Shown: positions 9,248 to 59,145 of the stretch, in pieces
Numbering within the stretch: position 1 is the first letter of the stretch
How the letters are laid out: each line of letters opens with the position of its first letter
Assembly: GCF_964204865.1 (NCBI RefSeq)
Contig: NC_135264.1
Span: forward strand, 1,984,001 to 2,048,000
Direction of reading: 5' to 3'
Length of the DNA stretch: 64,000 nt
Source: Styela clava
Lineage: Eukaryota > Chordata > Ascidiacea > Stolidobranchia > Styelidae
The notes under the pieces: generated by a model
Databases searched by the model: none
What the model saw: only the letters and a program-made list of their open reading frames with translations
Told to the model about the DNA's origin: nothing
Made by a program: the position numbers and the translations under genes

Positions 9248-10276
9248 GTTCCAATCATTTAAAAACTCTCGATGCGACTTTTCCCGGCACTAGACTTCGT
9301 TTTGTTCTTACTTGTTTCACGATTAATTAAATATGTTTCTACAAAAGAATTTAAGTTATTATAAAATATTATTTCGTATCTGGTAAAATAAAAATTCGGA
9401 ATAAAAAAATACTGATCTTTAATGCATTTTATCTGTATGTACCTTCTTTTAATGAATCATAGTCGCCAGTAAGTCTTCCCCCACGTATGGAAGGGAAACA
9501 ACAGTATTTATAACAAAAATAGAAAGAGGCACCATATAAGCCAGTGAGTGCACCGTCTACTTGACTTAGAATAAAACAAGTCAATTAGCAGGTTTTGTCG
9601 CCTACCGGGCGTAGTAACAATTTTGCAATTAACCTCATCGATCAGCTTAAGCAATCAAGTCGGAGGAACATAGAGTCGGAAGACTTTAAAGTTTTAAATG
9701 AAAACAAAAAAGAAAACACCAAATCTTTCGTTGCGAAAAGAGCTTAACTAGAGCAATTCTCTTTCAAGTTAGAAGCTTTTGTAAGCGAGTGATCTTGAAG
9801 ACATATAACCTCCATATATATATAAATATTTATTAGAATTTGATATGAGAACACACGCTGTCTGCGATCCGATATCTCTTGTTTTTTCAAAATAGTCCTC
9901 CTCTAGAAATAGTTTATGCCAAAATTATCTAGCTCGTCAGCATTGTTCAAGAAAACTGTTCAAGACTGCAAAGGCACCTGGGTGAACCGAGACAAGAGCA
10001 TGGCCGATTGAAGATTCGAATTTTATACCGGACAATCGCGTTAATTGTTGGTATATTGAGAGTTGCGCCCCTTTTTTGTTGCTACAACGCACAGGGAGCA
10101 GAATCATCTGCATATTTCCCATCTTTAATAGCCACAGCTGGAGTACAAAGTTACAATTTACGACATAACTTCACAGCCTTTTACTCTATTAACTCCTCTA
10201 CCATACGGAAGGGGGTATTTTGAATCGCAATCATTTTATTGGATCTCCGCTCAAGGAGACCCTTATTATCAGTCGT
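9248..10276. other. Intergenic, no gene seen
   Basis: This is the upstream region of the protease gene. Short frames here lack family motifs or plausible splice partners. No TATA box could be assigned with confidence. 10239-10260 contains a short palindrome (TCTCCGCTCAAGGAGA) immediately before the microsatellite. Confidence 0.45.
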
Positions 10277-10804
<528 letters not shown>

Positions 10805-11667: not shown

Positions 11668-14600
11668 CAGTGGCGGCGCGTGGTCATTTTGACAACCGGG
11701 GCAAGCTACTGCGGGACCAAGTCACCCCCATCTACGGGGACAGGATGAGCGCTGTAAGTTCTCCCATCATTTTATGAGTATAAAAACCATTCCATCAGTA
11801 ACAACCAATCGGCAAAAGCGACAATTTTTAACGATAAGAAAGTGTCTTTAAAACCGGTCCAAGTCAAGGGATAATAAATATAGACATAGTTTATTTTGAA
11901 ACCTCTTTCAAAAGGAAAGGCAATATTTACCCAGATAAATACAATGACATATTAACAGAAACTTCGGGAAAGCAGGCAAAACCTAAAATAAGGTTTAAAA
12001 CGTTACTATGAAGAAAGGAAAGGTAATGCAAAGATAAGGACATGCGTCGCTCACTCATAGATATATATGCTGCTAGACTTCTACTGCTTGAACATATATG
12101 CAGCACGCCGCGGCTTCTTGGAAGCAAAATGCTCAATAACGCACTGATTAAAGTCATGCATCCCAGAAATAACGTCTCTGTGAATGGATAAAACAGCCAA
12201 GGAATTTAATCTATCTTGCTTCATTGTGTTTCTGAGATACGTTTTAATACGCTTCAGCGTGCTGAATGTTCGCTCTGCGTCGGCGGAAGAAATAGGCGTC
12301 GTCAAAATGATGTCCAGAAATTTTGCAGACGCCGCAAAGGTAGTTACTAGAGTGTTATCTATGAGGAACCCATAGAGCGCGCAAGGTGATGTGATGTTCA
12401 AAAAAGTTTGATTGGTGTATATACATCGCAATTCATTTTCCAATTTACCCACGTTCATCATGGGGTAAAATTTGGAGACAGTAGCCAACAAATGGATGGG
12501 AAATTGACGTGCAAATTTTGAAAAATTTTTGGGGTTCATCAAAGAGAACGCGGCAAGGTGTTCAGTGCGCAGACGATCGCCTATTTGATTCACCAGAACG
12601 TCACAGCATTCCTTTGCAGACAAAATCAAACGCTGCGTTGTTTGCCCGCGGCGTAAAGAAGCACTCCATGTGTCGTCGTATTTTATTGTTTCCCGGATAC
12701 GAGATACAGCATCGCAGAAGTCTGAAATACACGACTGCACAGACGCTCCATCCATTAGCCTTGACTGCAATGCGCCGTATAATACATCCACGTGATAGAA
12801 TATTGTGGAGAAAAAAGCGAGAAAAAATGAAAACTCACCATCTTCTAGCAGACGCTTTAGACCTGCCGCCTCCCTCACAGAGCGTTCGTCCCAAACCGGA
12901 GAGCTCTGAATGCCATTGAAACACTCAATGAGATCAGACCTAATTTCGGACACGCCCTAAACCACGCGTGATTGGAAGTTCCAACGTGTTGGTGCACAAG
13001 CTGGGAGACGGCGGCTACATATCTGGCGAAGGAGGTCAGAGCGCTTCGGCGAAACGGAAAAAAATGAAGAAAACTCCGAAACATTTGCAAAAAATATACG
13101 GACGAGAGGGGTATCAAGACACATATTTTTAATAACGAGGTTAAATTGGTGTGCATAACAATGTAAAAAATGCGCATGAGGAAAATCTTCTTTTATATAA
13201 ACTTGAACATCATGTTTCGACCCACTCATGACTGCCGCGCCGTCATAAGTTTAACTATCAATTTTGACTTCGCGTTGTAAGGCTGTAACACTTCTTTCAG
13301 TACAGCCGATATCCCGCAAGCCGTGCGATCAACGATTGGTACAAAGCTGTGAAATCTCTCGGTAGGTTTACCATCTTTCACAAACCGAAAAATCACAGCC
13401 AGTTGGGAAACGCACGTGATGTCAGTTGTCTCGTCAGACTGAATCGAAAGGAACTGGCAATTCTCAATTCCCAGAGCCAAATGTTGTAAATAAATTTTAT
13501 ACATTGAGTCGAGCAAATCATTTTGGATATCCTTAGATGTCCCTTTCGAAACAGTTGCGGCATCAAGATGATCTCTCAATACTGTATCTAGGGATGCGGT
13601 GTATTCCACCAAAAATACCCCTCTATTAGAAGAGCCAGCCCGTTCATCGTGCCCACGGAGGGTCAGCTCGTGACAACCAATGAACTTCAAAACATCTATC
13701 AATCGACCGAGAACATGGCGGTTTTTCTCGACGTTTTGTTTGTGCCGACGAATAGAAACCGCGCGTCCTTCATCCAACTGTGCTGCAATATTAACATTTC
13801 CGAATGTTCGGTATTTTACTGCATTGTCCAGATGCTCCATAGAAGATTGATGATCCCTGGCATGCTCGGAAAGATGTTTAAGATCTCTAAAACCAAATTT
13901 ACATCAACGTGAGTCACGGGCGGTAGCAAAAAGTAGGCAATAAAAACAAAAAAATGCATTTTTGTCCTCGCTGTAACACAACCATTCGTGTTTTTTATAC
14001 CAAGTTTCTGCGCAGAATGTACGCCGACGCTTTCCTCCGTCATGGGATTGTTCCAGTGAACAATTTTTTGGTTGATAAGGCCCAAGACGTTGTACCTCTA
14101 ATTTTTGTTCCAGCGGCAGCTGCGAAAACGGAGTGCGAAGTAGTGCATCAACCTTATTCATTATGAGGTCTAAGGCTAAGAAATGCGAAGCCGGAAAGAA
14201 GTGAGGAGCTCAAAAGGAATGTGGAAAATCGAAAGCAAATGGACTAAAGGTCTCTAACTGATTCAAATAGCGAAACAAGCGACAAAAACGAAGGCGAGGA
14301 AACTATCAACTCTTCAAGCAACCAACGAACGAGAAGGAATGCGTGAATATGTCAACAAGTTGTTGTAAGAAACGTCGGCATTGTGTCGTCATAATTTCGG
14401 GGCTAGCCCCGATCGGCCCCGATGATTTAGTAGAAGAAACAGAAAACAAACCAGACAAACGCGGCGAGTGGAAGATAAAAGAAAGAATACGATATACAAT
14501 GAGCAACCGGGGCAAAATCGGCGTCGCCCCGTCGACGTTCGGCGAAGGCTTTACGAGCGAAAAATGAACCATGTCGGGAGAATATGGCTAGTGTAGACAG

Positions 14601-21000: not shown

Positions 21001-24000
21001 TCATATACCGTAAGCTAACTAATATTTCAGTTCACACAGAATGCGCAATAATTTCACCAAGAATCGAGTATGCAAATCACGTATTTAAATTGTACATTTG
21101 ATTTTTTAACTAATGTCTGCCTATAAGATAGATTCATTTACTTAATGCGCGTTCTTGAATTTGGTGAATTTCACTCTATAGCAAGTAATAATCGTGAATC
21201 GTAAAATCCTGTGAATTTGTTTTTCAGGTACAGACTCGCCCCTGACCACCCATTTCCCGCAGGATTTGATGATTGTCTGCGCGTCACAAAATATTTTATT
21301 GAAAGAGCCCGAGAATTTGACGTGGATCCGAATAAAATTGTATTATCAGGAGATAGCGCAGGTCATTTTTTCTAAGTGCAACCTAACCTACTAATACAAA
21401 TCTTTTTTTGTTTTTTTTAGTATAACTTCAAAATGCATATGACCATACATTGCTAATACATATTACAAATAAGTATTATTGAAAGATACGCTATGCATTT
21501 CCCTTATAATAGGGTTGGATTATTCGGATAACGGATAACACGATAAGCGGTTAACCGAGGGGTATTTTGCTATCTGATATTATTGTGCCGGTTGCCGGAA
21601 TGAGCATGAATAATGCATTTGCTCATTAGTGGTTTTAATATTTTTTGTTAAGTGGCGGCTGACATCCCCAGAGCACATAATAAAAACTTTTATCCACCCT
21701 TTTTGCTCATATTTTAGCCTTCCGTAAATTGCTGGAGTGAACTTCACGATCACATCACCAAAAACCCAGGCTTGTCCATGAGACATATTTTTCTGTCCCA
21801 TTCCCATCCCATCGAATAGCAATTATGCCTGTCCCACTCCATGGGATTCCCATTGGAATATAATCCAATAAAAATTGTTAAATTTAGCTTTAGCGTTTAC
21901 TAAATAGGACTACATGTACGAAGAGACCTGCAGGACAACAAAATTTACGGACTTTGTTAACTTTATATTTATAACTATTATACATGTGTTCACAAAGTAT
22001 ATTGTTAATGCTGAATATATTTTGCTCTTTATAACTTATAAGAGAACTATGCTCAAATATATGGACACGAAGTCCATAACGAAATGTTTGACCATCATTT
22101 GCCGGAAAATCATACGTTTTTCGTGTCCCACAGGAAATACAAATGTGTGCTGTCCCATCCCATGGGATTCCCATTCCCATGGACAAGCCTGCAAAATACG
22201 CATTCGCTTTATAAGGTTGGGTTGGAAATATAAGCATGTAAATGAATTCACGAACGAAGTTTTGAAGGGGTAGGTGGGAAGATGAGGCAGTCTGAAGGAT
22301 GACGGTTTTGGTGATGACTATTTTCGCTGTCGCTGTTATTGCCATTGGGTATATTGTCGGGAAAATGGGACGTGTTTTGGTTCGGGATTGGACACAACAC
22401 CAATACCGCACGATCTACCCCACTTAGGCTATGTATCACAAGGCTTTGTCGGTGTTGGATGGCCTCTTTTCTATCCTACATTTAGAATTTGTTGGAGATC
22501 TGCCGCGGCCGGGTGGTACATTTTGATTTTGATCTGGTGCATTGGGCTTTTACGGACATATAACTTAGGCCTACACTGGGGGAAGTGCGATCCACGGATT
22601 GCTGATATTGTTTATGTCCATAATTTCATGGCTTTCCCGGGTAGTTTGTTTGCCAGTGCCCACTGATCAGCATTTGTTTACTGATTTTTTTTTTGTCAGT
22701 ATCGTTCGGCTTACATAAGCCTTACCGTCAGCTTACGTCGGCTCTTACTACTGAACAAAAATTTGCACCTATGTAGGTTGTCATCATTGTGTATATTTTT
22801 CAGGTGGAAATATGGCAGCTGGAATAAGTGTTGAACTTGCTAAACAACTCGACACCAATCAGAAGCATCCAGTTTGTATGATGAACTTAATTTATCCATC
22901 ATTGCAGAAGGCGAACTTCCAGTTACCGAGTTTCCTGCAGAATCGAAATCCTCCAACACTACCGCCAGAATTAGTTGGGCGTTTTAGTTTAACTTATCTC
23001 GGGTGTGTTCGAAATCACCCTAAAACAATATTCATGTGCTATATATGTATATATATAACATAGAATTCAATTTTATACATTAGATTGAGAAAAATATAGT
23101 TGCGCAAAAATTTTATTGAAAATCGATCGATCAATTAATCTAATTACAATCTATTCGTTCCATAAAAAATAAGTTATCGATCTGGATCGAAAATTTAGGA
23201 TGCAACTCTGTGAGAAATGACAGTTGATAAAGCTGTGTATTGCATCCTGATTTTGCATTATGAAATTTCAAAACTCGGCGAATTTCAGCTTAAAGTTGAG
23301 ACTTTTTTGACCAAACTCTCAGATTATTGATCCGTTTGTATGAGTGAATTTTAAATTCCACAACGATTGATACCCTTGACTCCAACTTTACAAATGATCA
23401 ATATTGCGTGAAACTTTCTATACAGATTTGAAAATGAGACCAGCTTTATTCCGTTGATTCTTAAGAATGCTCACATGATAGGATTCGATGATAAAGGCGG
23501 AGTTCTGCAAGGAATGAGCGAAAAATGGATTCCTCAAAAGTAAGTGTGGTATATATTAATATAATACATATAATTCATTTTCTTCAAGTTAAGAGCGGGC
23601 TACCGATTCAACTTTAATCAATATACTTTCTTGTTGTACAGAATGTAAACAACAGCTGAGCTATGGTTACAAATTAAATTTTCATATTTGTTGTTAAAAT
23701 GATGTAGACTACATGTTAACTTCGGGACTAGTTGCTGTTGGAACATTCGGATTGTTAGCAAATTCATCGTTTATTTAACTATAGTTTGATTGCCGCCAAC
23801 ATTAACCCATATTTAAACTTAACCTCTTTATTTTGGTTTAACAAATATTCCAGCAGCTTATCAGAAGTAAAACCACAAACGTTGTCGCATTCGCGTATTT
23901 ACTGCAGCGTTGCGGGCAAAAGTTTCTTCCCCGTCGAACAATACCTTGTAAAGAAAGCCCGAGTGATGATAAATTCCGAAAAAATTCAGCAACGCATAAT

Positions 24001-28229: not shown

Positions 28230-31200
28230 ATGGGAAGAAGATTATTAGGATTTTTGTTCGCATCCTGGCTGGCCTATCGTTTGTATGTACCGTTGCCAGA
28301 TTATTGTGACTTTCCAATAAAAATAAAGGGACTCTATAGTTTGTTTAATGCATTCGACCTTGCGGTAAGTGGCATGACTATTATTTGTTACAGTATTTTA
28401 TGTCATTGTGTCAAAGATACTTCGGGTTGAATATACATTGGTAGGCTATGGCCGATAGAAAATATTTCAGCTTTCTAAATCAGGTAGCTTATGTGTGGCT
28501 GCTACCATTGTTTTGACTTGACCAAAGTATAAAATAATTAATTGAAATGAAATGGAAATTTCTAGGCCACATTATGGGTTTTAGTATATAAACTCATTAT
28601 GGTGTAACTCACTTCAACTGCTATTATGAGTGCAAATATATTAGTTCGAAAGAATCGTTCCAAACATTTTTATATATCTATTTGGAATATATATATACAG
28701 GGAAATGTGTTCGAACTTTTTGGAGGAAGCTACTCCACGCCTTTCCATCTAACAGATTATGACCCGGGAGATAATTTAAAAGAAATAACAACTACAACTA
28801 AAACACTTGCTGGCCGACAAGTTGACATTCATCGCCCCATAGGTAGTTAATAATATTAATTTTATTTTTAAATATTCAGCGATTAACATTTATTTGAAAT
28901 TCGGAATGAGATAAAGTAAATACCAAGATTACACATAACAAATTAGTATTTGATTTGAGCAGGCCCTGTTTTTCGAATCATTAAAGAGTCGTATATCGGT
29001 AAATAAGTCATATACGTTTTAACAAATCGTCAATTTTATATTTGATCATTTCAGGATTCCCTAAAAAGAAATCTGGATCAGCTATCATATTTTTACATGG
29101 AGGTGGTTGGACGATAGGATCAAGAGGTTAGTGTTTCATTTTGTGTTGCCACAATGCCGCTAATGCAAAAATTAACTTTTTGTCATTTACTTTGTTTGTT
29201 AAGCTGCTTATGCTGTTGTGACAAGAAAAATTGCGAAAGAAACAAACATGATGGTTTTTGTGCCGGAGTAAGTTTGTTTTATATATGATTTCAGAGTAAT
29301 AATAAAATGAAAAATGGCATATGACATATTATGTAAATACAGATATCGTTTGGCGCCAGATCATCCCTTTCCTGCGGGATTCGAAGACTGCCTAAAAGTT
29401 ACAAAAGAAATAATCAAAAGAGCAAGAGATTTTGACATAAATCCGAACAAGATTGTTCTTGCGGGCGACAGCGCAGGTAAAATTACATATATTCTGATAT
29501 CCTTGTTTGCCTTTTGTGTTTTTAGCTTCCATTTATGTCTTGTTTTTTATATTTTCACAATATAACAAGACGATTTCTTTCACCAGGAGGAAACCTTGCA
29601 GTCGCCATAAGTTTGAAGATAGGTGAAGAATTTCAAAATGAAACACACCCAATTTGCATGATTAACGTTATATATCCATTCATGCAATTAGCCAATTTTC
29701 AATTGCCCAGCTACTTACAAAACAATGACGGAGGGTTGTTTTCCCCTTATCCTGTCGTTCGATTTCTTCTATATTATCTTGGGTGAGGATTTTCGTGTTC
29801 CAGTAACTTATTTTGTTTCTTTCGTGAAAATTAATATTACGGTTGAAGAAGAAATAAAATTATTTGTACTCGTAACCAAAAATATGCAATTATCAATTAT
29901 TAATACTTTTAGTTTTTGGAATCACACCAATATAATTCCACTGATTACAAGAAACAGTCATATGAACGGATTCAAAGATAAAGATATTCTCGATAGAATG
30001 AGCGATAAGTGGATTCCAGAAAAGTAAGAGATTATACTGTATATAAATATCGGTATGTGATCAATAATATTTTAGAATATTATCTACGAACAATACTGAA
30101 ATTTGTAAATTCAAACCCTACCTGTGACCAACCGACTCAAAGTTAATAATATGCATTTCGTTTAAAATACTTTCATTTTGCCTTTCGGAGTAAAATTTCA
30201 GGCATTTGATTTATTTGTTTTTGTGTATTCACTCCAGGTACTTTTCATCAGTCAAAACAAATTTCATTTCAATTGATATATCTTCCATGGTGTCATCTCG
30301 TCTAATCATGTCCGTGTTTTGTTTTCATAATACTGACAAATCTATGAAAACCACAATTAATATAGAATAAATCTCATTTCAATACCATTTTCATTGTGTT
30401 ATTTATGTCGTCATCGAAACAAGAAATTGGAAGACTAATGTTTTTTTTAAGATATAAAAAAGGTCTAGTTCCGACAGATGATGATAACGAAATTGGATCC
30501 GATCAAATGGAAACGTACTTCCTACACGCCACAAAGATTCAAGAATTCGTTTCCAATCGCCAAGTTGCACCTTTGGCCGCGAGTGACGAACATTTACGCA
30601 CACTACCCTACACACACGTAGTTACCTGTGAATACGATGCCATACGTGACGATGGAGTGAGTGAATGATGAAACCATTACAATTTTTATTTAAAAGATGG
30701 TGTGTCAATTCTTGAAAACAAGATTGACTTTATTTACCGTAATTCCAGTCAATTTATATAGTTTCGTGAGAAAGAAAAAAACAAAAATATTTTGGTAAAT
30801 GTCGAATCTTTGTATTAAAAAAACACATTGGGATATGCTGGAGTAAGACGAATATCCTGATATGGCCATTTACATTTGCACTAGACTGCATACAATTTTA
30901 GTTTATAAACATAAGTACGGATTATTGAGAACCAAAAGTCATCAACAGATATTATACTACTTATATTGTACTACTTTTTTACATATATATAGATCTTTTA
31001 AATGTTATTTTTTGAGATAAAGTTAATATGAGATACCAGGATACAATAATATATTCCAATCCTCTTCAGATAATTTTCTACGAAAGATTGAAAGATCTCG
31101 GAAAGAAAGTTACCCATCAACATTGGGAGTTTGGCGCACACGCTTTATTGAACGCATACGGAATGGTTGAATATGAAAAACTCGATCAAGCAATGGGAGA

Positions 31201-44865: not shown

Positions 44866-46401
44866 ATGAAAATTAACACTTATGTCATCATAATTATGAT
44901 GACTGAATTTTGCGTAGGTGCCGCGATGGCGGATTCTCGTCCTAATATTTTGTTCATATTAGCCGATGACTTTGGATTCAATGATATTGGATATCATGCC
45001 AGTGAACATGAATCAGCAATAAAAACTCCTCATTTGGATTTCTTGGCTGAGAACGGAATAAAACTCGAAAATTATTACGTTCAACCAATTTGCTCGCCAA
45101 CCAGGAGTCAACTAATGAGTGGTCGTTATCAGATTCATACAGGTTTGCAGCACGGAGTGATTCGACCTTCACAACCAAACGCGTTGCCAATTCAAAATAA
45201 GATCATGCCTGAACAATTAAAAAATTGTGGCTACGATACACACATGGTGGGAAAATGGCATCTTGGTTTTTATGAAGAAAAATTTTTGCCATGGAAAAGA
45301 GGTTTTAACTCGTATTTTGGGTATTTAACCGGAGCTGAGGACTACTATACTCATGAGCGATGTTTCAATGGAATGTGCGGAGAAGATATGTGGGATTCTG
45401 AAATTGGACCCGTGAATAACACATGGGGGAATAACACATATTCCGCTCATTTATTCGCTAGAAAAGCAATTGAGGCAATTGACAAACGTGATTCTACAAA
45501 ACCGTTGATCATGTATTTGGCATATCAATCTGTACACGGGCCTTTGCAAGTGCCAGATAAGTATACTGAAATGTTCAAAGACATTAAAGATAAAGCACGA
45601 AGAACTTACGCTGGAATGGTGTTAGCATTAGATGAGTCAGTTTAGAATGTGACTCAGCACTTAGCTAAAGTTGGTATTCTGGATAACACTATCATTGTGT
45701 TTTCCACTGATAACGGCGGCCAGACTATGGCCGGTGGTAATAACTGGCCACTAAGAGGGAGGAAAGCCACTCTTTGGGAAGGTGGCGTTAGAGGAGCGGG
45801 ATTCATGTATGGTAAACTACTCGAGGCTAAAGGTGTGACACATAAGGGGCTGTTACATGTTTCAGACTGGTTTCCGACACTACTACAAGGTGTCGCAATG
45901 TGTTCAACATTAAATGGTACCCAGCCATTAGATGGATACAATCAATGGGACGCCATTCGTCAAAAGGAATCATCGCCCAGAACGGAAATTTTACATAACA
46001 TTGACCCTTTGTATAGTGCCAATTCAAATGAGACAGAAATGCAAAACATTATTATCAATGGATTTGACATTAAGGTTCACGCAGCAATTCGAAGTGGACC
46101 TTGGAAATTACTAACTGGAAATCCGGGCTTTGACCAATGGGTAAAACCTCCCGAATCCGAACAAAATGGAGTTGGCCAAATGACCTATGCTAATTCGTCC
46201 TCAAATGTAATGTTGTTCAACATAGAGAATGACCCTTATGAACATAACGAAGTATCCGAAATGAATCCGACAATAGTTCAAAATCTTCTTAGTAAACTCG
46301 CTAAATATAATTCAACTGCCGTTCCTGTTAGATATCCACCAATGGATGCGAAGGCGAATCCCAAAATGCATGGTGGCTTCTGGAGCCCTTGGATGAAATA
46401 A
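44866..46401 (+). pseudogene. Arylsulfatase B-type sulfatase with in-frame TAG
   Basis: One frame of 511 codons is interrupted only by TAG at 45643-45645 (codon 260). It starts MKINTYVIII and has a signal peptide ending near AAMADS. Metal-binding DD is at 34-35. The formylglycine site CSPTR has Cys76, followed by the sulfatase blocks MVGKWHLGFYEEKFLPWKRG and STDNGGQTMAGGNNWPLRG. The sequence resembles ARSB/ARSI/ARSJ, lysosomal or secreted glycosaminoglycan sulfatases. Reading continues in the same frame beyond the stop with conserved sulfatase sequence to the natural end, so the lesion is a single substitution: a null allele, a young pseudogene, readthrough or an assembly error. The lack of introns may mean a retrocopy. 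A CAG-like acceptor (TGTCTTTAG) ends at about 44831, 35 nt before the ATG. Confidence 0.85.
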
Positions 46402-47191: not shown

Positions 47192-47677
47192 AAGATTGGT
47201 ATTCGACTACCGATGACATAAGAAACAATGGTTATTATTTTAATTCGTTCTTACGCCTTTGAAATCACAAATGTGTACCTAAACAACAATAAACATTCAA
47301 ACGTGTACCTAATGAAAATTGAACAATAAGAGGTCAATATATGTATAAATCGCGTATCAGTTACTGTACGTTTGAGCAAATTACTGTGGTTTCTATGGGA
47401 TTCGTTTTATGTATGAGATGAAGTCATCAAAAATTGCACACATTTTGGCGGTTCCACTTTTGTGTTAGTCGATAAGATTGCTGTATACTGGTAGTCTACT
47501 GTGACAGATTGAATACCCGAACTACTCCGTTTCCATATATTTGAGCATCGATCTCTTGTTGAGTGGTCAAGAGATGCGCGGTTCGGGTGACGTAATCTCA
47601 CTCGGTGGCGTGCTCGGGTGTTCGGGCATCGAATTTCTGTTCAATTACAGCAGCATTTTTGACTAGAATATTTGGTA

Positions 47678-47904
47678 CTCCCGTAGTATGTGAACCAAGA
47701 TGGCGGACACCGGGACGTGGTATGTGTACCAGGTTAGGGTTCGACCACAATCTCAGGTAAAAACACTTCGGGAGTCACTTGGCTAGTCCCCAAATTCGTA
47801 ATAGAACTAAAACAAGGAAAATTGGAATAAAATTATGGCCTAAGCCGACCTGCTACACATACTATGTTCAGGTGTCCGCCATCTTGGTTCACATACTACG
47901 GGAG
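47678..47904. mobile_element. MITE with long inverted ends in duplication unit 1
   Basis: The terminal inverted repeats are about 34 bp and apparently perfect, starting CTCCCGTAGTATGTGAACCA and continuing through AAGATGGCGGACACC. The interior matches 3177-3275 and also shares CCCGAACTCGTAATAGAACT-like and TAAAA(C/T)TATGGCCTAA blocks with 49856-50065. Comparison with unit 2 of the duplication gives the empty site (around GACTAGAAT), so insertion followed the duplication. Confidence 0.85.
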
Positions 47905-48543
47905 CGCCGAATTTTTCATTCGACTTACGAATTGTTCGATTATCGAGGTATGACTGTATATTTAATTAAAAGGAAACCAAGATGTCGGCAATTGTTCTCA
48001 TAAAAGAATGCATTCATTCGCCTTTATTCACTATTGAAATGGATGCACAGATACCAAACATATCAATTAATAGAAATTTTATCAAAGAAAACGAATGACA
48101 GAATAAGATTCTTGAATATATTATTGATTGGTATTAAGATTGGTATTCGACTACCGATAACATAAGAAGCAATGGTTATTTTTTTCAATCCATTCTTACG
48201 CATTCTAAAATACCCAAAATATTAACAAATGTGTACCTAAACAACAATAAACAACACCTAATGAAAATTGAACAAAGGGAGGTCAATATATATATAAATC
48301 GCGTATCAGTTGCTGTACGTTTGGGCAAATTACTGTGGTTTCTTTGGAATTCGTTTTATGTATGCGATGAAATCATCAAAACTTGCGCACATTTGGCGGT
48401 TCCACTTTCGTGTTAGTCAAGAAGATTGCTGTATACTGGTAGCCTATACTGTGACATATTGGATACCAAAACTCTTTCATTTTGGCTTTCTTTTCCATAT
48501 AGTCGAGCATCGATTGTTGATTTAATGTTGAATTGTCGAGAGA

Positions 48544-48903
48544 CAGGCCGCATGATTTTCGGGAAATGATAGTAAAACATTTCGTTATAGACGTGTCCAT
48601 ATATTCGAGCATAGCTCTCTGGTCAGTTATAAAGAGCGAAATATATTCAGCATTAACAATATACTTCGTGAAAGGGCTGATGGACACATGTATAATAGTT
48701 ATGAATACAAAGTTAACAAAGTCCGTAAATTTTGTTGTTCGCATGTCTCTTCGTACATGTAGTCCTATTTCTTAGATGCTAAACCTAAATTTAACAATTT
48801 TTACTGAATTTTATTCCAATGGGAATCTTGTGGGACGGGGCAGGCATATTTGCTACGGGATGGGAATGGGATAGAATGATATATGTCCCACGGACAAGCC
48901 TGC
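48544..48903. mobile_element. MITE with GGACAAGCCTG end in duplication unit 2
   Basis: It ends GGACAAGCCTG at 48903, matching the terminus of the element at 21767-22191, and shares long interior stretches with it in inverse orientation (for example CATTTCGTTATAGACGTGTC, and ACATGTAGTCCTATTT). The left end is rearranged: CAGG is followed by GCCGCATGATTTTC, skipping the outer 90 bp of the other copy. Confidence 0.75.
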
Positions 48904-49165
48904 GAATTCCTGTTCGATTACCGCAGCATTATTGACTAGAATTGTTTAGTCGACTACCGAATTGTACGATTGTCAAGGTATAATATAAATGTATATTTAA
49001 TTGAAAGGAAACCAAGATGTCGGCAATTGTTCTCATATAAGAATGCATTCATTCGTCTTTATTCAGTATTGAAATGGATGCACAGATTCACAAAACATAT
49101 AAATTAATAGGAACTTAATAAATGAAAACGAAATACAGAATAAGATTCTTGAATATAATAAACTA

Positions 49166-49639
49166 TTATTATTGGAAAAGACTATAAGCAGGCTATTGTG
49201 TCATAAGATATTTCCAGAATACACGCCATTGTGGCAATTGAAATGATATTCATTAAATTATGCAACATTATTGTAGTATTGTAGATATAGAGTATTACCT
49301 ATTGTTCAATATTGAATTCTTTGTATATGCGCAGGATACTGAATATGCACGTAGAAAATATAAATCCACGCTGTGGAGGGCAGGATAACACAACACGCCG
49401 AAGAGCAAAGACCAACTGTTTGAAAGCAACGAGGTATTTATTTATATTCTTTTGTCAAATAGCTATGGTGATTGGGATGCGAACCAAAGTCATCTAACGA
49501 CGGCGAGACTGAAATTAACTATGCGATCTATTTAATTATCTATGTTTTACTGACTTTGGGTTCGAACCTGTCATCAAACAATCTGTGTATTAATTTGTTT
49601 ACATCATAGGTTTCAGAATAAAGAAAATCTTCAAAGAAA
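49166..49639. other. Upstream region of the peptide precursor gene
   Basis: AT-rich, with no repeat recognised and no motif-bearing frame. No clear TATA box is placed near the presumed transcription start. Confidence 0.4.
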
Positions 49640-52600
49640 ATGCGTCTGAAAGTTGCAGCTATTCTTTTTGTCGCATTCTCTCTCCTACTGGTGGAGGAGT
49701 CTCGGGGCTGGAGGAGAATTTTTCGACGAGTAGGAAGGATAGTTAAGAGGGTTGTGAAGGCCTACAAACGTATTAGAGGAACTACGTAAGTTTCTTTACA
49801 TTGATCCTATAAATATTTAATTTATTACACTGAACAGTTTATTGTCTTTGCGAGCGCTCCAGAAGTGTGTGTACCAATATGAAGGTAACTACTTTTGATC
49901 GCCTATTTTACATCAAGTTGCGTAATGGGACTAAAACCTATGGACTGGGGGATATTCACTTGGCTAATAAAGACAGTCCCCGAACTCGTAATAGAACTAA
50001 AATAAGTAAAAATTAGAATAAAACTATGGCCTAACTATTATAATCTGGTACACATACAGCGGGAGTACCCCATCGCGAATTCTTCGCATGTCACACACCT
50101 CAAATGTACTAGACTAATAGTGTTTTTTGTGTATTCTTAACATTAAAATAAAAATTTTAAGTTCATTGGCAAGAATTTACTTTTTTAAGTTGCAAGTGAC
50201 GTCCAAGTTAAGTAGCAAGTGACGTTCAACTTATTTTCAAGCTCAATTTATTTTCATTGATATTTTTCACGGAAAATTATATGAATAAAACTATATTCTT
50301 AATGGGACGGATGAAACACTTCGACAGGCCGGATACGGCCCGATGCCACAATTTGCCCACCCGATTTAAACAATAAAAAGAACAAATTTATTTTGAGGTT
50401 AAGTTTTCGGTGTGTCCGTGGTAAAAATAAGAAACACTTTCTCCAGTGCGATATAAAATTCGAATATCAATTTTCTCTGATGCTTAGTTTTTGCGGTGCA
50501 GGGAGTCTAATTAAAAAAATTGAAACGACGATTATTATATTCTTCTATATATTATACTCTTCATTTATTTGAATACTTACGACACTTTACTTTTATAGCG
50601 GGGGCCACATTGCAATAGAAGCGGTCAAAAAATATCTTACAACTGTATGGAACAACAAAGAAGAAATCAATGAGCTGAGAGAGCTGAGAGAAAAGGTAAT
50701 CCACTATAATCTGTTTGACATAAAGCTAGCGTTTATTAACCCTTTTCCAGCGGCTAAGCTCATATGAGAGAATATTTACGCTTAATTTTGTGCTCGGTAA
50801 ACTACTGTTAATATCGCTCTTAGCTCTTTGTTGACTTTATCGCCTGATATGAGAGAAGCGATGGAACCTTCCAGCCGTGACGCATCGTGCGAATTCTATA
50901 AATAGCGTGGATTTCAAAATCGCCTGTCAGACGTCTGAAAATGTCGACTCAGCTCAGACAGGAAATACTCCTTTATAATGACTTATTGTTGGTTTAGCAT
51001 GTATTTTCAGACATATATACTATCCCTGACCATCCCTGGCGCTGTGTTGTTTTGATAAATATGATTTTGACTGCTCCATAGTTGGCAGAAGTATGGAGAT
51101 TTTTTGTAGTTAAAAAAAACGTAAAATTAATGGTAATTTTAACGCGTAAATGCGCGTATGGGATTGTTTACGCCGTTCTACGCGCATTTCCGTCGAAAAA
51201 ATTTAATTTTTTTGCGTTGGGGGTGGTCTGTGCAGTAATAATAAGAGCTGTGACGTCATCAAAATCAGTAATTTTAGCCTTGAACTTGATACACCTGTAG
51301 ATACAATTGTGAATTTCAGAGTAATAACCATTTATGCTATAATAGGCGTTTCGGTGATGTTGTGTTAGGAAAAACTTGACGAAAACGTTGAAAAAAAAAT
51401 TAATTAATTAGGAATTAATTATTAACCCTCTACTGTACACAGAATTTCTAAAAGTCTAATTTATTTTTAGAAATTTTTGAGATATTTTTGCAAAAAAATT
51501 TTTTTTTCGGAGTGTAATTTAAAGATATATTGCTGAATAGAACTCTAGCACACGCCTTTAAAAATCCATAAGAGAAGCTTTAGGGCTTAGTGGTTGACAA
51601 AAAAAATAACTTTAAAAAGACCATGTCAAATAAATTGGGTCAACAGCTGTCAGAGAGTTAAAGTGTTAAGACTTGACCGTTTTAGCATCACAGGTTACAA
51701 ATCTCGAGTTTAAATTCTAGAGATATAAGTGATACTTGTGCAGGGGCAAAAGTCGCGAATACGTGTCGTATGAAGATCAAATGTTTACGTTTTCCATTTA
51801 CATTGCAAATGTCGTAAAAATTCTTCGCTTTGCCGCGAATGCCCGTGACGAAATATTATTGAAACAATCTTACCTGGCGTGAACTATTTGCTATTAACTG
51901 ATAAAGCAGAGTATTGAATGGCAACTCTTGAGTATTGCCCATATTTACGAGTCAATGTTAATATGATTAACTGGGTATTCGTCTTAGAAACGTGTACTTG
52001 ATAGTTAAGGAAGCCCCAACTGTTATGCAAAAAACCCACGACGCCAAGGAGTACAGCAATCCTGTCGCACATAATTATACCCGCTGAATTTCAACCTGCA
52101 CTCTCGCATAGAGTAATCAAAAGATCAAATAGCAACGTGTTCCTAACGCCAAGCACAACGCCATAACCGTTGACATTGGTTACTTTTGTAGCTTCCAAAT
52201 TTCAGCACAACTTTCTCTTTGTTTAGGACGAAGAAGCCTATATGAAAGCAATGTCCATGATCGCTGATGAAATTGCGGCAGAATCTGGAGATGGTGAAGC
52301 TCAGTTCATGGTGGAAATGTTGGACGAACTTGCCAGCATGCCTGACGGTAATTTGTTTAATTTGACGGTAGAGTGTTTGCACTGGATACGAAAGAACTGA
52401 TATGTAGGGTGTTATAACGTTTGGAAATAGGCCAAAATTCTCCTATTCGATATTTAGTCAAGTCACAGTATTTCACACATTGTAAGTTCACGAGTCTGAC
52501 CATACTTTTAGCTCTATCTGAACCCTTAACCTAGAATGTTGCGCATATCACTGGATTGCGCGAAGCAACTTTAAATTGAATAAATAGCAATTGCACGTCC

Positions 52601-53069
52601 CTTTTTCAGAATTTGTCAAGTCTCGCGCCCCACCTCCAAAAAAAAAAATAGCTAACAATAAGCAACAAATAACAGATAGTTAGGCGAAAGTATGTTTTAT
52701 TTAAAAAACGCGTTAGAAATACGTGGATGGAACGTAAATAATGAAAAAATGAAAAGTTTTGAAATGTAAAGAAGGCCGGCAAGATGAAATCTGATGAATA
52801 TTTTCATTTTCAGTTAGCTTCACGCCTTCAAAAAATTGTCTACGCGCGCCACCGTTTGAAAACCACTGGCCTGATTGATCTATTTTCTGATTTTACTGGA
52901 CTTGACAAGATTTTGTTCAAAACAGCCGATTCAATTTGTGACTTTCTCCTATAACATACACTATTAACGTCCTTTCACTTCTATTTCAGAGGAATTCAAG
53001 CAATTCGTGGCTGAGCATGAACTTGAAGAAATTGCAGACTCCGGCGAGCTACGGTTATCAGATCATTAA
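49640..53069 (+). CDS. Putative antimicrobial peptide precursor, four exons, 147 aa
   Basis: Exons: 49640-49785, 50599-50695, 52227-52347, 52990-53069 (444 nt including TAA). All junctions are GT/AG and the phases close. Residues 1-22 form a signal peptide (MRLKVAAILFVAFSLLLVEE, then SRG). Residues 24-48 are extremely cationic, with about 11 Arg/Lys and no acidic residue, alternating with Ile/Val/Phe so that one helical face would be hydrophobic (GWRRIFRRVGRIVKRVVKAY, then KRIRGT). From about residue 70 the chain becomes strongly acidic (Glu/Asp-rich, helical). Signal, cationic peptide, anionic tail is the known layout of ascidian styelins, clavanins and related precursors, where the tail is removed. 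Activity is predicted, not shown. No processing site is obvious, so the mature C-terminus is unknown. AATAAA at 53182-53187 is a likely 3' end. Introns carry a MITE, a SINE and an hAT fragment. Confidence 0.8.
49856..50065. mobile_element. MITE in intron 1 of the peptide gene
   Basis: It begins GCTCCAGAAGTGTGTGTACC and ends CTGGTACACATACAGCGGGA near 50065; the ends are imperfectly inverted. Interior blocks (CACTTGGCTA, CGTAATAGAACTAAAA, CTATGGCCTAA) are shared with 47678-47904, and its first 70 bp recur at 63930-64000. It is non-coding. Confidence 0.7.
51994..52178 (-). mobile_element. Diverged SINE copy in intron 2 of the peptide gene
   Basis: It matches the SINE at 26308-26442 through GAAGCC(A/C)(T/C)CC-type, CAGCAATCCT and GTCGCACATAA blocks and the head region (CCTAACGCCAAGCACAACGC), with an insertion of about 35 bp between body and head. 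The B-box region is degenerate. It lies about 50 bp upstream of the exon at 52227. Confidence 0.6.
52606..52870. mobile_element. hAT-type fragment in intron 3 of the peptide gene
   Basis: The right end, GTTTGAAAACCACTGG, is a typical hAT terminus. The left part, with TCTCGCGCCCCACCTCC before a poly-A run, is the kind of sequence expected inside such elements. The left terminus and target duplication are missing or degenerate. Confidence 0.5.
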
Positions 53070-53663
53070 AATGGAGTTTCTTGACGGACAGACCGAGAAA
53101 CAGACAACTCGTTTTAATTTTATACTTTAGTTTTTTTATTGTTTTACAAAGATATTGCAGATTCAAAAAAAAAAAAATAATAATAAATGAATGGCGCCAC
53201 CATAAATTGAAATTGTATTTTATTTTTTCCTGCTACAGTATTAGTCAAGACAGTGGTTCTTAAAGGTAATTTACCGGGGGCCAAAATTAGAAGCGGGACG
53301 ATATTTGCGCGCCGGCAAGGGGCAGATGCTTCTGTCGGTACGTATTATCAAGATACCAATATAATTGAATTGTTACGATTATACACGTGCTTAAATTGTG
53401 GTAATGAGGTCAAAATTGGGGATATCTAAAGATAGAGAGAGTGTTGAATTATTTCACTTAAGTTCGGCGGGTCGTAATAAACCGTTACGCGAGCCGCTTA
53501 AAAACTGAATGAACTTTTCTGCGTTTTGTTGCCATTTGTCTAATTATGGTAGATAGAATTATAGGCTCATTAATAAACGAGTAATTGGGAATTTTATACT
53601 TGTTGCGTTATAATCTGTTCTACGTAAAGAATATAATCGTCAAAACAGCTGCTTTGTTACTAT

Positions 53664-53726
53664 AATTCAGTGAAGCGTCGCGGGCCGGATTATATTGCTC
53701 CGCGGGCCGTGGTTTGCCGACCCCTG
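53664..53726. mobile_element. Terminal fragment of an hAT-type element
   Basis: It reads GCGTCGCGGGCCGG, then CTCCGCGGGCCGTGG, then TTGCCGACCCCTG, matching the right end of the element at 53919-54419. A CAGTGGTTCTTAAAGG motif at 53253 may be the start of the same or another element. I cannot pair the ends. Confidence 0.5.
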
Positions 53727-53918: not shown

Positions 53919-54419
53919 CAGGGATCGGCAACCTATTGTCGCTCGCGGGCCAAAACTAAAGGTTGCAAATCTTTGTGGTCGCACATATTTTTTTTAAGTG
54001 AGTTTAAAACCAAACGGGTGGTTGATGAACCACATTTTTTACACAGATCAGTAAGTTAAAATTTTAGACCTAAAATAGCAAGCGAACACTGCCACTCGTG
54101 GACTCAAGTCGTCTTACTTGGCAAAAAATTTTAAAAATGACATTTATTGTGATACTTGTTGTTGCATTACGCTTGATAGCTTTTCGACACCAGGTGACAC
54201 TCTGGTCACCTGGCATTGTTTGCCAAATTTGAATACAAATTTCCTTCAAGTAGATACTTTTTTTAGAAATCAAGCAGACAACAACATTTTAAGAAAACGA
54301 TTCATATGTCCACACCGTGTTCAATATAATCTGCTCCACGAGCGTTTTGTCGCTAAATTTCAGTAAAGCATCGCGTGCCGGATGATTTTACTCCGCGGGC
54401 CGTAGGTTGCCGACCCCTG
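53919..54419. mobile_element. Non-autonomous hAT element, 501 bp
   Basis: The left end CAGGGATCGGCAACCTA and right end TAGGTTGCCGACCCCTG are inverted. Flanks are cccttgaa and ccctagaa (7 of 8). Subterminal GCTCGCGGGCC on the left and CTCCGCGGGCC on the right. It lacks transposase. Confidence 0.8.
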
Positions 54420-57446: not shown

Positions 57447-59145
57447 ACCTCGGGCAGTCAGGTACGAAACTAAATAGAACCCGAAAATCCGGGGGTCTCC
57501 TTAAGTACACGCCGCAAGTAGGGTGGTGGAGCCAGTCTGTGGACAATTAAATTCAAATCGTTATAAAACAAAAACCAATATTTCTAACCTGTTAATTTTT
57601 TCACAGTAGGTGCATTGGCATTTATTCTACACGCTAAACTTCGAAATAACTCCCTATGACGAGGGGTTCAAGCTATACAAACCACCAAAGTACGACACTC
57701 GGAAGACAAATTTGTGATCGAACGACCAGTGTGCGACCACGTATTTCAAGCCTTGAACATCGTTTCTGCTGTGTCAAGACTAGAGCATACGCAGCCATGC
57801 GGGAAAAAATTGGGCTTATAATTGCATTTCTGACTGTCATATTTTAAGAACACAGTTATTTCTGACAAAACTCGTCAAATTATAAACAAAGCAACGCATC
57901 ACAGCAATCAAACAGACAAAAACACTGTCTGGCGGTGGTCGCAAATTGGTCGACAAAGATATTATCGGCGTATTGGACATGCGCACCCCCCTATTCCCCC
58001 CTCCTTTAAATGTAGAAACGCGAAACTTTAAAGATGGTTAAAAGAAACACAACTCTACCCACCTGCCAAGTTTCATCTGTTTATCTCTTAGATATGTATG
58101 GATTTTCATGGAGACAATGGGTAGTTGGAACATGATAAAATGGTCCGTTTTTTTTCCTCCGGTCGGGTTTTCGGTCGTAGCTTTTTTGTTTGTGCCCGTA
58201 TTTTAGTGTAATTTTGCTGAGCTACTAGTGGACGATGACGCGTGAGAAATGTCGCGTGGTTCGTTAAATGGCTTAAGCAAAGTGGCTAAGCCACCCTACT
58301 TCTAGTTGGCCTGGCTCAGGAATGACCATTCATAACCCCCACCTGACTATGTCATCCGAAAATTACATCGCTGCGAAGTCGCAGTGACGTAATACGGCCT
58401 CCAAAGTATACGGATGGTCGCCAGACAATCATCCGAAATCGAGCAGTCTATTTCTTTCGTTTTCTTGTGAAACGATACCGATAAAAGAGAGATCACTGAC
58501 GTTAGTGAGTCGTTACGTTATTACGTTACTGTGATGTCTCAGGGACATAAATTTTGAATGACGTTGTGTTAGGAATACCATAATATGCTATACCTAATGT
58601 TTGTGCCACGTCCTCTAGAAGTACTTGCAAACATGGCCCGATTGTTGCCATCAACTTATATTTTGGCCCAATAAAATACTGAGATGTTGACTACTAAACT
58701 AGGCATTTTGTAATTTTTCTTTTTAATGCTTCATTATGCACTTCAAATACTGAAATAAATTGAAATATGCTAGTCCAAGCTTCCAATGTTTAACATTCTG
58801 ACATGATACCGAAACGCCTGCTTGAAATAAAGCCAGGGGACCAATATGTCTTATATATTTTATTTGGTATTGTCCCCAAACTACATTGTCTAACTGCAGG
58901 AAGCATGCTGGCATGCAAAAGAATTGGGCCAACACTGATGCGAATACTGATTCTACTATTTTCAGCTTTGTGCATGTACAAGACATACCGATAATCAATA
59001 AATTGTGTACTCAAATTATTGAAAATATTTTACAGTGGCCACAACCGTAATCGAATCCGTTTGAATTCAATTACTTTGCATCGTTCATCCCTTTGAAAGT
59101 ATTGAGTTTAAACAATACATATATATTTTTAGAAAATAATACATT
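57447..59145. other. Intergenic upstream of BMS1
   Basis: Contains the second degenerate copy of the inverted-repeat element around 58270-58630 (CTACTTCTAGTTGGCC on the left, TCTAGAAGTACTTGC on the right). No motif-bearing frame. A TTTTTAG acceptor-like site ends at 59132, 13 nt before the BMS1 ATG, possibly a 5' UTR intron or a spliced-leader acceptor. Confidence 0.45.

Follow-up and report, generated by a model that had tools for sequence, protein, structure and literature searches.

A four-exon gene for a candidate cationic antimicrobial peptide precursor with an acidic tail in the ascidian Styela clava

Background

The closest described counterparts of the gene reported here are the antimicrobial peptides of ascidians. 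Styelin precursors consist of a 22-residue signal, a mature peptide of 31-32 residues, a glycine and a 26-residue C-terminal pro-piece (PMC8659048), and the styelins have been named as cecropin-like (PMC10608444). Botryllin of Botryllus schlosseri, GenBank OP851480, has a 158-amino-acid precursor with a 23-residue signal and a mature peptide of 37 amino acids and net charge +11.2; the synthetic peptide killed bacteria and yeast, and a KHK motif is common to botryllin and the styelins (PMC9966394). In a survey of Ciona, 17 of 22 candidates possess an anionic helix, and most follow the order signal, cationic helix, anionic region (PMC7387483). In the present study we describe a four-exon reading frame of Styela clava, located in positions 1,984,001 to 2,048,000 of contig NC_135264.1 (assembly GCF_964204865.1, forward strand). 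This stretch of 64,000 nucleotides is called the window, and positions are counted from its first letter. The frame, at 49640-53069, encodes a signal-like peptide, a cationic amphipathic helix and an acidic tail, in this order. An earlier interpretation of the bare letters, hereafter the sequence-only reading, had proposed it as a candidate gene for an ascidian-type antimicrobial peptide.

Two further peptide groups are relevant for comparison. Cecropins combine a tryptophan near the N-terminus, a cationic amphipathic helix, a glycine hinge and a second stretch, and their precursors are not known to carry an acidic C-terminal tail. Clavanins are histidine-rich 23-mers. In amphibian prepropeptides the acidic piece precedes the mature peptide. 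The clavanin precursor resembles these amphibian prepropeptides, according to a review.

Gene structure and coding evidence

The coding part of the gene is composed of four exons on the forward strand:

49640..49785 (+): coding exon 1, with residues 1-23 as signal-like peptide and 24-48 as cationic amphipathic helix; donor TAC/gtaagt, phase 2
50599..50695 (+): coding exon 2, glycine-containing hinge and a second, charge-balanced stretch (6 K/R, 6 D/E); minimal RXXR motif at residues 76-79
52227..52347 (+): coding exon 3, first part of the acidic tail (1 K/R, 12 D/E); strongest codon-usage signal of the exons
52990..53069 (+): coding exon 4, second part of the acidic tail (2 K/R, 9 D/E); TAA stop

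All introns are bounded by GT and AG, the splice phases are 2/0/1, and the frame is free of in-frame stops. The coordinates, the canonical splice sites and the predicted product of 147 amino acids, which contains no cysteine, are as the sequence-only reading had given them. Because of the phases, skipping of either exon 2 or exon 3 alone would break the frame.

Codon usage was trained on five coding pieces of the window, namely BMS1, C2orf69, two pieces of a sulfatase-like frame and a zinc-finger protein, and on this basis the whole coding sequence scores +24.6 bits. The score of exon 3 is matched by none of 13,023 non-coding stop-free stretches of equal length, while those of exons 2 and 4 are equalled by 1.2% of 19,369 and 2.7% of 27,911 non-coding stretches, respectively; these comparison stretches overlap and are thus not independent trials.

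The same structure emerges from a search for the best chain of exons that used codon usage and splice consensus alone and took no account of peptide properties. Any start followed within 4 kb by part of a known coding piece or of a (TCTG)n array was excluded in advance and is not counted. With limits that were fixed after the finding had been seen (exactly four exons, a first exon of 100-200 nt, introns of 60-2000 nt), the search returned exactly the exons 49640-49785, 50599-50695, 52227-52347 and 52990-53069 with 25.1 bits, ranking first among the 76 starts that yielded a chain. The runner-up (14.5 bits) begins just upstream at 49345, and the best chain elsewhere reaches 12.8 bits at 29314. 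None of 689 dinucleotide-shuffled windows, with 43,499 chain-yielding starts between them, attained 25.1 bits, their maximum being 21.9. The exons overlap no repeat of the window (repeats found at E up to 1e-3). A tblastn search of the window at E <= 10 recovered no paralogue of the 147-residue model; its matches were the four exons themselves and 15 residues within the BMS1 frame that match by chance (E 2.9).

Signal and cationic helix

The hydrophobic core of the candidate signal passes the filter described below, and a possible cleavage site with serine at -3 and glycine at -1 can be read from the sequence. Residues 24-48 hold 11 K/R and no D/E, in agreement with the claim of a 25-residue segment with about 11 positive and no negative charges; for residues 24-47 the calculated charge is +10.8. 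The stretch G23-G47 has a hydrophobic moment of 0.70 on the Fauchere-Pliska and 0.84 on the Eisenberg scale, values matched by 0 and 10 of 20,000 permutations, respectively, and among eight angles tried the moment peaks at 100 degrees. The periodicity is extreme, in line with the amphipathic helix proposed earlier. For comparison, five helices from the 22 cationic ones published for Ciona gave moments of 0.33-0.65 (Fauchere-Pliska) and 0.42-0.70 (Eisenberg) in the same computation. No comparable amphipathicity at 100 degrees was detected in the second stretch or in the two tail pieces that were tested.

AlphaFold2, run on exon 1 alone as a single sequence, predicts one helix at residues 2-20 and another at 25-47, interrupted at 21-24, at modest confidence (mean pLDDT 70.7, pTM 0.34). 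A strict filter demands that a start have a hydrophobic core and that the next 24 residues include 9 or more K/R, lack D/E and reach a moment of 0.5 or higher. It finds a single start in the window, the ATG at 49640, and none in 1180 shuffles; this filter and its variants, including their thresholds, were written after the finding had been seen. If the moment condition is dropped and only the 24-residue charge rule kept (9 or more K/R, no D/E), 17 matches occur in the 1180 shuffles, or 0.014 per window. A looser form (6 K/R, at most one D/E) finds four starts in the window, compared with 1.3 per shuffle, which leaves only the strict form informative.

Acidic tail and possible processing sites

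The charge counts of exons 3 and 4 substantiate the acidic tail of the sequence-only reading. Residues 80-147 have an isoelectric point of 4.05 and a charge of -17.9, and the whole pro-form is at -6.9; the tail would consequently be sufficient to offset the charge of the helix. Minimal RXXR motifs start at residues 22, 26, 30 and 76, of which the first three lie at or inside the cationic helix and the last just before the acidic exon 3. As to the glycine of an amidation signal, which was sought ahead of the pro-piece, Gly47, Gly50 and Gly51 occur in the hinge.

The C-terminus of the mature peptide may lie in the hinge near Gly47-Gly51, which would yield a single helix of about 24-28 residues. 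Alternatively, cleavage after Arg79, at the minimal RXXR motif, would release a cecropin-like peptide of 56 residues with a charge of +10.9. An end at residue 48 is thus not obligatory, and the mature peptide may continue through exon 2.

Comparison with known peptides

The sequence-only reading had attributed the order of the parts to both styelin and clavanin precursors. The succession of signal, cationic helix and acidic tail does agree with the styelins and with most Ciona candidates, but clavanin is not supported as a model, its precursor being described as amphibian-like. In addition, residues 1-49 contain no histidine, in contrast to the histidine-rich clavanin 23-mers.

Botryllin has a 23-residue signal, comparable to the candidate signal here; it is similar in its cationic peptide of about +11, its long C-terminal pro-piece and the length of its precursor (158 versus 147 residues), and differs in its KHK motif, which is absent from the 147 residues of the present product; homology to it can be judged from three epitopes only (PMC9966394). 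The styelins, known from the same species, share the predicted order of signal, cationic peptide and C-terminal pro-piece as well as a tryptophan near the putative mature N-terminus (PMC8659048, PMC8719109). They are, however, rich in phenylalanine, carry KHK and have a pro-piece of 26 residues, whereas residues 24-48 here include one phenylalanine and are dominated by arginine and lysine, and much more sequence follows the helix. The Ciona peptides Ci-MAM, Ci-PAP and Ci-META likewise possess a signal, a cationic amphipathic helix and an anionic region in this order and no cysteine after the signal, but the survey drew its candidates from precursors 50-100 residues long and would have filtered out one of 147 residues (PMC7387483). 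The likeness to cecropins is one of layout, with a tryptophan near the N-terminus, a cationic amphipathic helix, a glycine hinge (47-51) and a second stretch, and the acidic tail constitutes a difference.

Membership in a described family was not supported by local alignments. The cationic part was aligned with 25 segments (21 distinct Ciona segments from 22 rows, styelin A and B, and two botryllin epitopes), and the tail with 19 (all 17 Ciona rows, of which one was split in two, plus a botryllin epitope); styelins and botryllin were represented by the first 20 printed residues of styelin A and B and by the three botryllin epitopes. The best cationic comparison is with Ci-META4 (p = 0.012, uncorrected), followed by Ci-MAM-A (0.021) and Ci-PAP-A (0.070), and the best tail comparison has p = 0.072. 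The styelins gave p = 0.089 (B) and 0.18 (A), and the botryllin epitopes 0.23, 0.39 and 0.28. After correction for the 25 cationic and 19 anionic segments, no alignment to these printed peptides is significant. The layout therefore appears to match the architectural class of linear cationic helical precursors with a C-terminal anionic region, and descent from any named family is unproven.

Database searches

Three sub-threshold Pfam matches of the precursor (E 0.025-0.076; 13.5-14.9 bits against cut-offs of 23.7-27, the best 14.9 against 27) are regarded as noise. Its PDB matches up to E 10 comprise five rows, the best with E 0.09 (NusG, Spt5 and two others among them), and were rejected. The cationic peptide alone retrieved four PDB rows up to E 10, led by 9r1o_A (E 9e-6) and followed by E 0.026, 0.43 and 5.8. 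One of these names itself a designed helical repeat protein, and the names of the other three look like design codes, as we take them to be. We read these matches as an effect of composition and helix ideality and reject kinship on their account. PHROGs, searched with exon 1 only, returned no families. Three strings from the peptide were not found in the open-access literature searched, a search that excludes subscription papers, sequence databases and supplements.

Interpretation and alternative explanations

We interpret the locus as the gene of a secreted, linear cationic alpha-helical antimicrobial peptide precursor with signal, cationic helix and anionic tail, and assign this interpretation a probability of roughly 0.74. 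From the analysis we infer its function, processing, expression, storage, cleavage and membrane action as follows. The signal peptide would be cut near Gly23 and Trp24, and the pro-form would be kept in secretory granules, where the anionic C-terminal part (about -18 to -20) offsets the helix (about +11) to a net charge of about -7. A protease would then free the N-terminal cationic peptide. On meeting negatively charged microbial membranes, this peptide would fold into an amphipathic helix and permeabilise them. The gene looks like a good candidate within a known architectural class and not like a new kind of system. The ascidian label and the family label of the peptide are best taken as leads.

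Several observations weigh against this interpretation. The 147-residue precursor contains no R-X-K/R-R furin site, and with three of the four RXXR motifs at or inside the cationic helix the processing step is left unexplained. Exon 1, which encodes the helix, is by itself not coding-like (-2.5 bits; 22% of 8,959 non-coding stretches score as high), and the signal peptide was called from hydrophobicity alone. A pattern scan revealed no NF-kappa-B-like site in the upstream flank (the window has three such sites, one in intron 1 at 50062 and the others at 57491 and 63544). No Pfam family scored above its curated cut-off for the precursor. Viral contigs (7 pattern matches, none confirmed) and prokaryote genome contigs (142 pattern matches, none confirmed) gave no relative, and none was expected in either. 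Finally, the gene model was read from the DNA sequence.

It is very improbable that the exon chain is a product of chance or decay, that is, a pseudogene or four unrelated open stretches. The indistinct codon usage of exon 1 would fit such an origin, as would the dependence of the codon scores on just five training pieces from the same window and of the chain search on limits set post hoc. On the other hand, the phase is kept over four exons with canonical sites and no stop, a search blind to the peptide ranks this chain first of 76 starts with a score that 0 of 689 shuffles reach, and the helix periodicity is extreme. A secreted peptide whose cationic helix serves another purpose is likewise unlikely, though less so. 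Such a helix might act in signalling, in binding to matrix or sulphated polysaccharides, or in binding nucleic acids in extracellular traps, with the acidic tail as an intramolecular chaperone. Many neuropeptide precursors carry short peptides in series framed by dibasic sites. The 147 residues include no run of short peptides between dibasic sites, which argues against this reading. In its favour, the gene structure, the signal-like start and the charge order would suit any secreted propeptide, and antibodies to the similarly laid-out botryllin stain extracellular nets (PMC9966394). Ascidian antimicrobial peptides, however, are described with a layout in which an acidic partner accompanies a strongly amphipathic cationic helix.

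Two further proposals concern the ancestry of the peptide. The gene could belong to the styelin/botryllin family by true descent and have diverged beyond the reach of the present comparisons, which would be compatible with the antimicrobial interpretation and which we consider possible, albeit doubtful. The order of the parts is the same, the signal of about 23 residues, the charge of about +11 and the length (147 versus 158) are close to botryllin, and botryllin and styelin D, like the present peptide, have a tryptophan near the mature N-terminus. The shared KHK motif is nevertheless missing here, and neither the N-termini of styelin A (p = 0.18) and styelin B (0.089) nor the three botryllin epitopes (0.23, 0.39 and 0.28) align significantly. 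Still more tentative, and rather unlikely as a whole, is an undescribed antimicrobial family without common descent with the styelins or Ci-MAM. Its product would run from Trp24 to Arg79 as a cecropin-like peptide some 56 residues long, in which an idealised Arg/Lys-rich amphipathic helix, a glycine hinge and a charge-balanced second stretch are joined and freed at the single RXXR motif before the acidic exons, with approximately one exon per functional module.

Flanking and neighbouring features

The flanks of the coding exons contain the following candidate signals:

49359..49366 (+): candidate TATA box TATAAATC, a motif match
49434..49616 (+): candidate intron of the 5' untranslated region, or acceptor for spliced-leader trans-splicing; donor gtattt at 49434, acceptor tttcag ending at 49616, read from sequence
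53182..53187 (+): candidate polyadenylation signal AATAAA, 113 nt past the stop

The TATA-box pattern has 11 matches in the window against 6.1 expected, and the candidate at 49359 is accordingly weak on its own. The acceptor ending at 49616 sits about 24 nt before the ATG at 49640. Judged by their motifs, the possible donor at 49434 and the good acceptor at 49616, between the TATA-like box and the ATG, suggest either a non-coding first exon or a trans-splice acceptor. A bacterial promoter scan of the upstream flank is uninformative for an animal gene.

Directly upstream of the peptide gene, a repeat unit of about 1 kb is present in two head-to-tail copies (47192-48123 and 48136-49160). The alignable blocks of these copies are 84-90% identical and interrupted by other inserts; they end about 200 bp before the TATA-like box at 49359, and a section of the second copy also aligns with the opposite strand at 21767-22116. 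Downstream, a pair of 97-nt repeats (53630-53726 and 54323-54419) is 77% identical over its length. The end shared by the pair presumably resembles the ends of non-autonomous hAT elements. A frame with a hAT transposase dimerisation domain (Pfam, 4.2e-10) is located at 12084-12956 on the reverse strand, and the open frames upstream of it, to about 14209, may belong to this frame.

Among the neighbouring genes, Pfam identifies C2orf69 (8.8e-54) and a sulfatase (3e-38, from a scan of only the piece before the stop). The latter is an intronless sulfatase-like frame at 44866-46398 on the forward strand with one in-frame TAG at 45643-45645, which points to a copy that has decayed or is polymorphic, or else to an error in the sequence. 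BMS1 of the window matches the chains 7mq9_SI and 5wlc_SI with 1231 and 779 bits, respectively, which we take to be the human and the yeast protein. This difference fits an animal, and the neighbouring genes are animal-like in general, while none of the features analysed points to tunicates in particular. A long (TCTG)n tetranucleotide array at about 10250-10800 opens several frames on both strands.

Significance

The gene exemplifies a practical blind spot, as a screen limited to precursors of 50-100 residues, such as the published Ciona one, would miss a precursor of 147 amino acids, and annotation relying on long open frames could miss four short exons. If it is expressed, the known antimicrobial peptides from marine animals would gain a helix of unusual regularity and strong charge. 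Relatives of the gene would show whether precursors composed of signal, cationic and anionic parts share descent or re-arise repeatedly.

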